Origin: Spinactinospora alkalitolerans
GTDB lineage: Bacteria; Actinomycetota; Actinomycetes; Streptosporangiales; Streptosporangiaceae
NCBI RefSeq assembly: GCF_013408795.1
Contig: NZ_JACCCC010000001.1
Location: 3,596,001 to 3,660,000 of the forward strand
Direction: 5' to 3'
Length of the DNA stretch: 64,000 nt
Part shown: piece by piece, positions 18,764 through 21,414 of the stretch
Layout of the letters: every line of letters begins with the position of its first letter
Position numbering within the stretch: position 1 is the first letter of the stretch
The notes under the pieces: generated by a model
What the model was told of the DNA's origin: nothing
What the model saw: only the letters and a program-made list of their open reading frames with translations
Databases searched by the model: none
Made by a program: the position numbers and the translations under genes

Positions 18764-20596
18764 GTGCACGTGGTCCAGGGAGAACGCGATCGCGACGAGG
18801 TGTTCGTCGAGTACACCAAGAGCGTCTGCCCGATGTGCAAGGTCGTGGTGGACGCGCAGGTCAACATCAGGGACAACAAGGTTTACCTGCGCAAGCGGTG
18901 CAGGGAGCACGGCTGGTTCGAGGCGCTGGTCTACGGCGACGCGCAGGCCTACACGGAGCTGTCGCGGTTCAACAAGCCGGGCACGCTCCCGCTGGCGTTC
19001 CAGACCGAGGTCAGGGACGGCTGCCCGTCGGACTGCGGGCTGTGCCCGGAGCACAAGCAGCACGCCTGCCTGGGCATCATCGAGGTCAACACCGGCTGCA
19101 ACCTGGACTGCCCGATCTGCTTCGCCGATTCGGGGCATCAGGGAGGCACCGCGGCGCGCAGCGCCTCGGTTGAGGGTGGTGGTGGGCGACGGGCAGAAGA
19201 GGCGGCGGCGCGCAGCGCCTCGGTTGAGGGTGGTGGTGGGCGACGGGCAGAAGAGGCGGCGGCGCGCAGCGCCTCGGTTGAGGGTGGTGGTGGGCGACGG
19301 GCAGAAGAGGCGGCGGCGCGCAGCGCCTCGGTTGAGGGTGGTGGTGGGCGACGGGCGGGCTATTCGATCACCCACCAGCAGTGCGAGCTGATGCTCGACA
19401 CCTTCGTGGCGGCCGAGGGCGAACCCGAGGTGGTGATGTTCTCCGGCGGGGAGCCGACCATCCACAAGAACATCCTGGACTTCATCGACCTCGCCCAGCA
19501 GCGCCCGATCAAGGTCGTCAACCTCAACACCAACGGCATCCGGCTGGCCACCGACGAGCGCTTCGTCGCCGCGCTCGGCGAGCGCAACGGCCGCAACGGC
19601 ACCTCGGTCAACGTCTACCTGCAGTTCGACGGCTTCGACGAGGCCACCCACCGCGCCATCCGCGGCAGGGACCTGCGCGAGCACAAGCGGCGGGCGCTGG
19701 ACAACTGCGCCGAGGCCGGGCTCACGGTCACCCTGGTCGCCGCCGTCGAGCGCGGCCTCAACGACCACGAGGTCGGCGACATCATCCGCTTCGGCATCGA
19801 CCATCCGGCGGTGCGGTCGGTGTCCTTCCAGCCGGTCACCCACTCCGGGCGGCACGTGGAGTTCGACCCGCTCACCCGGCTGACCAACTCCGACGTGATC
19901 GAACTGGTCAACGAGCAGTGCCCCGACTGGTTCCGGCCCGGCGACTTCTTCCCCGTGCCCTGCTGCTTCCCGACCTGCCGCTCCATCACCTACCTCCTGG
20001 TGGACCGCAAGCCCGAGCGGACCGACGTGGTGCCGATCCCGCGGCTGATCGACATCGACGACCACCTCGACTACGTCAGCAACCGCGTCCTGCCCGACCC
20101 GGGGCTGCGCTCCGCCCTGGAGAAGCTGTGGAGCGCGTCGGCTTTCATGGGCGCCCCCGCCACCATGGCGAGCCTGGAGACCGCCACCGCGGCGGCCGAG
20201 TGCGAGGCGTGCGGGATCGATCTGCCCGAGGCGGCCAAGGACCTCGGGGACCGGGCGTTCATGATCGTCGTCCAGGACTTCCTGGATCCCTACACGCTCA
20301 ACGTCAAGCAGCTCATGAAGTGCTGCGTCGAGGAGATCACCCCGGACGGCAGGATCATCCCCTTCTGCGCCTACAACTCGGTGGGCTACCGCGAGCAGGT
20401 GCGCGCGCAGATGTCGGGCGTGGAGGTCGCCGACGTCGTCCCCAACGCCCGCGAGTTGGCCGATGTGACCGTCGAGTCGCCGTACGGGTCGCGCATCGCC
20501 CGGAACGCCCTCGACGGGGACGGAGCGGGCGCCTCCGGCGGCACCGGCATCGCACCGGATTCCACCAACGTGGGCGGGAAGGCGGTGGAGCCGTGA
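18764..20596 (+). CDS. Radical SAM protein of the COG1964 (Tes-like) group with internal tandem repeat
   Basis: Enzyme of 610 aa. An N-terminal zinc-ribbon-like part has VCPMCKVVV and RCREHGWFEAL; a Cys-rich bridge CGLCPEHKQHAC precedes the 4Fe-4S motif CNLDCPIC (Cys112, 116, 119), followed by VVMFSGGEPT, the SAM-binding GGE motif. C-terminal Cys motifs include CEACGID and LMKCCVEEI. This architecture matches COG1964 proteins, which include the archaeal tetraether synthase Tes; the bacterial reaction is not established. Between the cluster and GYSITHQQCE lies a 69-residue in-frame repeat (19148-19354). The GTG start follows GGAGAGG. The next gene starts in its stop codon (GTGA). Confidence 0.85.
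   Translation: MHVVQGERDRDEVFVEYTKSVCPMCKVVVDAQVNIRDNKVYLRKRCREHGWFEALVYGDAQAYTELSRFNKPGTLPLAFQTEVRDGCPSDCGLCPEHKQHACLGIIEVNTGCNLDCPICFADSGHQGGTAARSASVEGGGGRRAEEAAARSASVEGGGGRRAEEAAARSASVEGGGGRRAEEAAARSASVEGGGGRRAGYSITHQQCELMLDTFVAAEGEPEVVMFSGGEPTIHKNILDFIDLAQQRPIKVVNLNTNGIRLATDERFVAALGERNGRNGTSVNVYLQFDGFDEATHRAIRGRDLREHKRRALDNCAEAGLTVTLVAAVERGLNDHEVGDIIRFGIDHPAVRSVSFQPVTHSGRHVEFDPLTRLTNSDVIELVNEQCPDWFRPGDFFPVPCCFPTCRSITYLLVDRKPERTDVVPIPRLIDIDDHLDYVSNRVLPDPGLRSALEKLWSASAFMGAPATMASLETATAAAECEACGIDLPEAAKDLGDRAFMIVVQDFLDPYTLNVKQLMKCCVEEITPDGRIIPFCAYNSVGYREQVRAQMSGVEVADVVPNARELADVTVESPYGSRIARNALDGDGAGASGGTGIAPDSTNVGGKAVEP
19148..19354 (+). repeat. 54-bp in-frame tandem repeat inside the radical SAM gene (3.8 copies)
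   Basis: Copies begin at 19148, 19202, 19256 and 19310; the period is exactly 54 bases and the copies are essentially identical, apart from the first codon of copy 1 (ACC for GCG) and truncation of copy 4 after 45 bases. Each encodes AAARSASVEGGGGRRAEE. The period is a multiple of three, so the frame survives any number of copies. There are no spacers, so it is not a CRISPR. It lies 29 codons after the last cluster cysteine. Confidence 0.95.
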
Positions 20597-21414
20597 GCAC
20601 CGGTCCCCTCTCCCCCGTCCCCGCCGACCCCGACGAGGTCAAATCCTGCTGCACGGCCGCCTACGGCGGCGACGCCGTCGCACTGCTGCTCGGGGACTCC
20701 TACCACCCGGGCGGCCTCGCGCTCACCCGTCGGCTCGCCGACGCCCTGGCGCTGGCCGGGGACCGGACGGTGCTCGACGTCGCCTCGGGGCCGGGGGCCA
20801 CGGCGCGGCTCCTGGCGATCGAACACGGCGTGCTGGTCCACGGCGTGGACCTCGGCGAGGAGACGCTGCGGGCGGCCCGGGCGAGGACCGCCGAAGCGGG
20901 CCTGTCGGACCGGGTCCGCTTCCACCTCGGTGACGCCGAGCGCCTGCCGCTCCCCGACGCCGCCTGCGACGCGCTGGTCTGCGAGTGCGCCTTCTGCACC
21001 TTCCCCGACAAGGCCGCCGCGGCGGCGGAGTTCGCCCGCGTACTGCGCCCCGGCGGCCGCGTCGGCATCACCGATGTCACCGTCTCCCCCGGCGGCCTCC
21101 CCGATGAGCTGGCGGGGATCGCCGGATGGGTGGCCTGCATCGCCGACGCCCGGCCGGCCGCCGACTACGGCCGGCTGCTGGAGGGCGCGGGCCTGCGGCC
21201 GATCCGCGAGGAGCGGCACGACGCCGCGGTCGCCCGGATGATCGACCAGATCGACGCCCGGATGCGGGTGCTCGCCATGACCGCCCCGGACCGGCTGTCG
21301 GCGGCCGGGGTCGTCCCCGACGCGGTCGGCCCGTACCTGGAGGCCGCCCGCCGCGCGGTGGAGGAGGGGGCGATCGGCTACGCGCTGCTGGTCGCGGAGA
21401 AGCCCGCGGGGTGA
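20593..21414 (+). CDS. Class I SAM-dependent methyltransferase coupled to the radical SAM gene
   Basis: Enzyme of 273 aa. SAM-binding motif TVLDVASGPGATARLLA (about residue 62), acidic VHGVDLGEETL, and LGDAERLPLPDAACDALVCE. Two cysteine sites stand out: KSCCTAAYGG near the N-terminus and CECAFCTFPDK after motif IV, a distribution reminiscent of ArsM-type arsenite methyltransferases, although the third conserved cysteine site of that family is not clear. The GTG overlaps the radical SAM stop (GTGA), so the proteins are made together and probably act on the same molecule. It ends 13 bases from the convergent DUF1989 gene. Confidence 0.85.
   Translation: MSTGPLSPVPADPDEVKSCCTAAYGGDAVALLLGDSYHPGGLALTRRLADALALAGDRTVLDVASGPGATARLLAIEHGVLVHGVDLGEETLRAARARTAEAGLSDRVRFHLGDAERLPLPDAACDALVCECAFCTFPDKAAAAAEFARVLRPGGRVGITDVTVSPGGLPDELAGIAGWVACIADARPAADYGRLLEGAGLRPIREERHDAAVARMIDQIDARMRVLAMTAPDRLSAAGVVPDAVGPYLEAARRAVEEGAIGYALLVAEKPAG

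Follow-up and report, generated by a model that had tools for sequence, protein, structure and literature searches.

The carrier gene and its tandem array

Within the window, the 64-kb stretch of DNA analysed here, the forward-strand gene at 18764–20596 encodes a radical SAM protein with an HMPTM-type zinc ribbon that is related to the tetraether lipid synthase Tes, as judged from Pfam, NCBIfam and the PDB. Its Pfam domains are PF04055 (radical SAM) and PF23545 (HMPTM zinc ribbon), and the closest solved structure is that of a tetraether synthase (PDB 7tol, E 1e-71). The best NCBIfam matches, Tes (NF045702, 308 bits, cut-off 450) and TrsS (NF045646, 315 bits, cut-off 490), both score under the curated cut-off, so the protein does not qualify as an equivalog of either. 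The cluster motif CNLDCPIC, seen in the translation and in an alignment of homologues, lies at 19097–19120 on the forward strand, and its three Cys residues are invariant across that alignment. Downstream, a methyltransferase gene (20593–21414) apparently overlaps the radical SAM gene by a few bases, and the two may form a small pathway together with upstream VKOR-family and Crp-like genes.

The gene is interrupted by a tandem array at 19151–19356 on the forward strand, detected by TRF and a repeat search, for which TRF reports a period of 54, 3.8 copies and 100% matches. Three full units (19151–19204, 19205–19258 and 19259–19312) are followed by a partial fourth starting at 19313. The original prediction had described a 54-bp in-frame repeat at 19148–19354 made of four nearly identical copies; tandem arrangement, period and frame stand, whereas the ends were 2–3 bases off and the copies number 3.8 and are fully identical. 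The frame is open through every unit, from the GTG at 18764 to the stop at 20594–20596, just as the argument that the period preserves the frame had anticipated, and translation also bears out the placement of the repeat between CNLDCPIC and GYSITHQQCE: the inserted residues have CNLDCPICFADSGHQ upstream and GYSITHQQCE downstream. Aligned with homologues, the forward-strand stretch that is additional to the empty orthologues spans ~19142–19357, with 72 codons replacing the two for Pro-Asp or its equivalent. A CRISPR array was ruled out, as the three linkers between the units are all identical and thus do not constitute unique spacers.

Perfectly identical units are also what an assembly error that inflated one copy to four would leave behind. 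We regard such an error as extremely unlikely, given that the 206-bp array sits in a single 6.68-Mb contig, can be spanned by ordinary long reads and has similar counterparts in other genomes.

Anatomy of the repeated element

The core of the unit, ~47 bp in length, is a dispersed element that is tied to no single enzyme. Copies were made non-redundant by their flanks (263 reduced to 204), and the 147 copies standing last in their array were used for a consensus, including two that score as likely chance matches and were retained. The element consists of a hairpin, a three-base gap and a G-tract tail that stops abruptly on its 3′ side after GGGCGGG; in the 147 copies, the tail block GTTGAGGGYGGTGGYGGGYGACGGGCGGG is highly conserved and conservation is at background within two bases 3′ of it. 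In the window, on the forward strand, the hairpin of unit 1 (GGCGC-GCA-GCGCC) occupies 19153–19165 and recurs every 54 bp, reaching 19315–19327 in unit 4. The consensus places the G-tract tail of unit 1 (GTTGAGGGTGGTGGTGGGCGACGGG) at 19169–19193 and, together with G-quadruplex motif statistics, that of the last unit at 19331–19359, including the terminal GGG at 19357–19359 that is typical of single and array-last copies. With an element profile, the four units score 57.8–66.6; no site in the rest of the window exceeds 8, and none in five shuffles of the window exceeds 0.

Evidence for the hairpin comes from covariation of the stem and from loop statistics. Four stem pairs are Watson–Crick in 111–124 of the 147 copies against shuffle means of 69–91, each exceeding the maximum of 1000 shuffles. 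The loop-closing pair, in comparison, reaches 100 against a shuffle mean of 93 and a maximum of 106 (113 if the partner is slid by two), and neither the next pair below the stem nor a possible second hairpin (CTC..GAG) covaries above shuffles. If any register is allowed, 99 of the 147 copies have a GNA loop on a stem of at least 4 bp (34 GCA, 34 GAA, 20 GGA and 11 GTA; shuffle mean 1.1), and the other 48 lack one. Flank controls gave 26 such hairpins on the left, probably due to preceding array copies, and one on the right. For 91 of the 99, the gap between hairpin and tail block is exactly three bases. As single-stranded DNA, C-GNA-G triloops show exceptional stability. When the whole unit was folded as DNA, the window copy came out no better than shuffles (z −0.67) and the hairpin was not chosen; the copy in the nearest orthologue (G021, see below) gave a z of +0.53.

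The tail carries a G-quadruplex motif in 135 of the 147 copies and in none of the left or right flank controls. Its G-tracts are conserved and the spacers between them vary, one spacer position being T in 21% of copies; as this T yields a TGA stop in the main frame, the element family overall is not maintained as coding sequence.

Dispersal in Actinomycetes

Searching the genome for the unit, one of the checks proposed at the outset, revealed six further copies at five loci beyond the array. The core pattern recovered those at 908091, 5456183, 5646390, 5652853 and 5652904, and a slightly wider pattern added 5637516. The copy at 5456183 lies in frame within the gene for the RNA-repair methyltransferase Hen1, and the one at 908091 within a PspC-domain histidine kinase gene, where it is read from the opposite strand. 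Three of the five other loci (L262, L012 and L002) fall within 16 kb, at 5637516–5652936, each as a pair of copies.

Beyond this genome, matches were obtained in 16 of 200 genomes of the same family (own included) and, with a stricter pattern, in 29 of 394 genomes across the class, all within two families. When named genomes were scanned for one exact pattern, 59 stretches emerged in Streptomyces, Streptantibioticus, Amycolatopsis, Kitasatospora, Nocardiopsis and Allosalinactinospora; the Amycolatopsis copies imply that the class sample misses some carriers. Copy counts in 12 of the named carrier genomes range from 1 to 61, with tens in some Nocardiopsis and Streptantibioticus genomes and fewer in Streptomyces and Amycolatopsis; the count is 61 in Nocardiopsis lucentensis and 54 in Streptantibioticus ferralitis. 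A reversed pattern served as control and matched nothing throughout the genomes surveyed by pattern. Overall, the element is patchily present, on both strands and in unrelated genes. A search of phages gave no match, and one of plasmids a single match (82%) in a 2.8-Mb Streptomyces record. Near a gene that we take to be thiolase-like, two genera carry a copy at the same place and a third has the same neighbouring genes (L056, L061 and L247), so some insertions may be old.

These distributions bear on the simplest explanation of the array, namely that a Gly/Arg linker arose and grew by replication slippage in this gene alone, likeness elsewhere being a chance product of GC-rich sequence. The units are identical, their period is a multiple of three, and their multiplication in the window gene may well be due to slippage. 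As a full account, however, a private slippage repeat is contradicted by the dispersed copies—the core occurs at five other loci of its own genome and in other families, the reversed pattern has no match in the genomes surveyed by pattern, and the hairpin covaries across loci—and we consider it very unlikely.

Insertion within genes

Whether copies lie in coding sequence was called from GC content by codon position rather than from annotation, using 300-bp flanks at 139 distinct loci, all of which were drawn from genomes already known as carriers. At 41 of these loci both sides are coding on one strand: 35 are in phase without stops and six are out of phase, against a one-third expectation for phase keeping (P 9e-12). 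The 35 include two sites that appear twice, namely the radical SAM gene (two genera) and a Streptomyces gene, presumably SseB-like (two genomes). The remaining loci are coding on neither side (54 of 139), on one side (40) or on opposite strands (four).

At the 35 in-phase loci, the encoded peptide is SVEGGGGRRAG or a variant in 19 cases, RPSPTTTLN-like in ten—the other strand read in the same codon register—and derived from other frames in six, and the stop-bearing frame is never used. This register bias (29 of 35; P 2.5e-7 under equal use of the five open frames) may stem from a preference for certain targets or from what is tolerated.

Orthologues of three carrier genes (radical SAM, Hen1 and SseB-like) provide both filled and empty sites. 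In 20 Hen1 sequences, the distance from KHYWV to RYL is 52 residues in the window genome, 35 in 18 of the 19 others and 61 in one, whose insert is unrelated to the element. The Hen1 gene of G006, a genome of another genus, has an unrelated 26-residue insert exactly at the site of the element (L284), so this site may be an insertion hot spot. The SseB-like gene has matches in 197 of 199 Streptomyces-group genomes searched. Among the best 30 of the matched loci, four have clear copies (L173–L176), seven degenerate versions (L179, L181–L184, L186 and L189), one another repeat and 18 none, three of the latter (L185, L188 and L193) having a few other residues instead. Match lengths of 381 and 333 correspond to a net gain of 48 bases. 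A different, longer in-frame repeat occupies the linker used by the element in the SseB-like gene of G317 (L190). At all three filled/empty junctions, targets are GG-rich and no unambiguous target duplication is readable. Together, dispersed copies, filled and empty sites and phase keeping support the early guess that the unit is a mobile repeat that tolerates insertion in genes.

Probable history of the insertion in the radical SAM gene

The nearest orthologue of the carrier gene, in G021 (same family, other genus), is 86–88% identical and has a single, diverged copy at the matching position. Distant orthologues outside the family (L016, L017 and L018) have no insert and show GRQPDG, GHQPDG or GHQDDG instead, and the insert is absent from the five remote homologues in the alignment as well. 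Comparison of homologues for the presence of the loop, as had been suggested, thus finds it partly represented: one orthologue has a single diverged copy and the other eight have none. A protein search of G091, the second genome of the G021 genus, gave no match.

The relatives therefore do not share a repeat of equal length, with one copy in G021 and none in L016–L018. Identical units, a closest orthologue with one diverged copy and three empty orthologues outside the family support the recent expansion that had been proposed. Since the G021 copy is single, diverged and at the same place, the array probably grew out of an older single insertion. Relative to the window unit, one stem pair of this copy is changed on both sides (GCCGC..GCGGC versus GGCGC..GCGCC), which may represent compensating changes inside a coding region or else replacement by, or separate insertion of, another copy. 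The copies in the window gene and in G021 could likewise derive from two insertions at one hot spot. We conclude that a dispersed, apparently mobile repeat with a hairpin inserted here at an earlier time and was amplified locally only recently.

Outside the insert, dN/dS between the carrier and its G021 orthologue is 0.19, so the gene looks functional in both genomes despite the insert. An AlphaFold model of the carrier is poor (mean pLDDT 55), and the insert, with residues at ~30, is modelled as disordered; that the loop would be near the active site follows from its place in the sequence alone. The suggestion that the repeat tunes the enzyme found no support: the insert is missing from the eight other aligned homologues, scores a pLDDT of ~30 in that poor model, and its peptide recurs, with variants, in unrelated proteins. 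More generally, copy number might set enzyme activity, or the repeat might be a selected RNA or protein-binding signal, in keeping with copies that two genera retain at one shared site and with G-tracts that are conserved while spacers vary. Patchy presence on both strands and in unrelated genes, the many copies for which neither side was called coding and the predicted disorder in the poor model all argue against such a functional repeat, as does Rfam, which yielded no family over threshold (and one sub-threshold match) for 18.7–19.7 kb. We deem it unlikely.

Tandem arrays elsewhere

Head-to-tail arrays are present at 50 loci and provide 93 spacings of 49–57 bp, 51 of which are exactly 54. 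The 54-bp spacing is retained even between neighbours that are just 60–70% alike (L044, L058, L163, L206 and L239), while other arrays of unlike neighbours depart from it (L093 at 49, L251 at 52–54). Spacings are multiples of three in 20 of 20 cases in in-phase coding arrays, in 17 of 31 where neither side is coding, in 24 of 37 with one coding side and in two of five out of phase. Most single copies (87 of 92) and most of those that close an array (50 of 55) carry the terminal GGG, as against 26 of 93 internal copies, the internal set not being deduplicated by flank. As the GGG is mostly missing internally, we infer that the 3′ junction is left intact when units are added.

Known systems and a putative mobilizing enzyme

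Short hairpins dispersed in many copies, as seen here, are a hallmark of REPs, which are small, clustered and occasionally inserted in frame (PMC3733652, partial text). The element resembles the REP/BIME systems with their RAYT transposases in its small hairpin, dispersal, clustering and sometimes intragenic position (PMC3733652, partial text), and these likenesses speak for a REP-type identity, with mobilization by a Y1 transposase (RAYT/TnpA-REP). It differs from REP/BIME in lacking a GTAG or CGTC tag, in its head-to-tail arrays with a 54-bp mode and in its conserved 29-base tail. Tags at the hairpin foot are indeed rare (GTAG/GTGG in 1 of 99, CGTC/GACG in 2 of 99); searches with PF01797 (Y1) left 10 of 19 element-bearing genomes unmatched, one of them with 54 copies; and none of the 19 Y1 loci, read ~1.5 kb to each side, holds the element, two chance-like matches at 6 mismatches apart. 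For the Actinobacteridae in its sample, one survey moreover reports subclass 1.1 as the sole subclass of these transposase genes (PMC6006769, partial text), which we take to be the IS200 type. Membership in the RAYT/REP family was rejected on the absent foot tags, the PF01797 gaps and the element-free Y1 loci, and mobilization by a Y1 enzyme appears improbable.

Among recurrent neighbouring genes (open frames of at least 120 aa at 151 loci), no group listed looks like a transposase; the largest groups are orthologous loci, and the rest of those listed, with 3–4 loci each, resemble common families by eye.

Rickettsia palindromic elements are dispersed short repeats found in frame in unrelated conserved genes as well as between genes (PMC2229807, partial text), and the present element shares both locations, including in-frame insertions in unrelated genes whose relatives are empty, as expected of RPEs or MITEs. 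RPEs, however, measure 105–146 bp and have terminal inverted repeats (PMC2229807, partial text), whereas the element is ~47 bp long and shows none: no inverted pair of at least 12 nt exists within 19000–19500, and the consensus ends are unlike each other. Its one-sided hairpin, G-tract tail and Actinomycetes hosts set it apart further.

MIRU-VNTRs are dispersed units of ~50 bp in variable tandem arrays. By description, the element, with its 50 arrays, is similar in this respect and differs in its hairpin and G-tract architecture and its frequent intragenic copies. Very small mobile dispersed repeats are known in cyanobacteria; the likeness is again by description, and the phylum is another. 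By analogy, the element would work like a REP or a Rickettsia palindromic element, yet it fails the REP tests done. Among the titles and abstracts listed in a literature search that lacks most subscription papers, none describes an actinobacterial element like this one, and two peptide and three DNA strings of the element, looked up as text in the literature, gave no match.

A proposed origin and its implications

Taken together, the array probably derives by local amplification from one copy of a non-autonomous mobile element that is dispersed among Actinomycetes. A single insertion would have entered the gene at an Asp-Gly or Glu-Gly position before the genus of the window genome and that of G021 split. 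An enzyme acting in trans would place the copy after recognizing the hairpin, probably in single-stranded form. In the window lineage, slippage or unequal exchange between units would then have turned this copy into four, and the array would persist because steps of 18 residues of a Gly/Arg/Ser-rich linker are tolerated, without being needed by the enzyme.

Far more tentatively, the element might represent a new minimal class of mobile DNA in Actinomycetes: a single-stranded DNA of ~50 nt with a GNA-triloop hairpin and a G-quadruplex-type tail, moved in trans by a non-Y1 enzyme. Such an element would also add copies beside itself at a preferred distance of ~54 nt, thereby giving rise to in-frame coding minisatellites in a wide range of proteins.

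If this is true, Streptomyces, Nocardiopsis and their relatives would gain small in-frame protein insertions and coding minisatellites from the element. For this group of hosts, one survey reported no subclass of REP-type transposases (PMC6006769, partial text), subclass 1.1 being taken as IS200 type as above. The element's sharply defined hairpin would offer a handle for finding the enzyme that moves it, and the natural pairs of filled and empty genes would provide material for studying how proteins tolerate linkers. In annotation, the SVEGGGGRRAG stretch would then no longer be taken as a property of each host protein in its own right.
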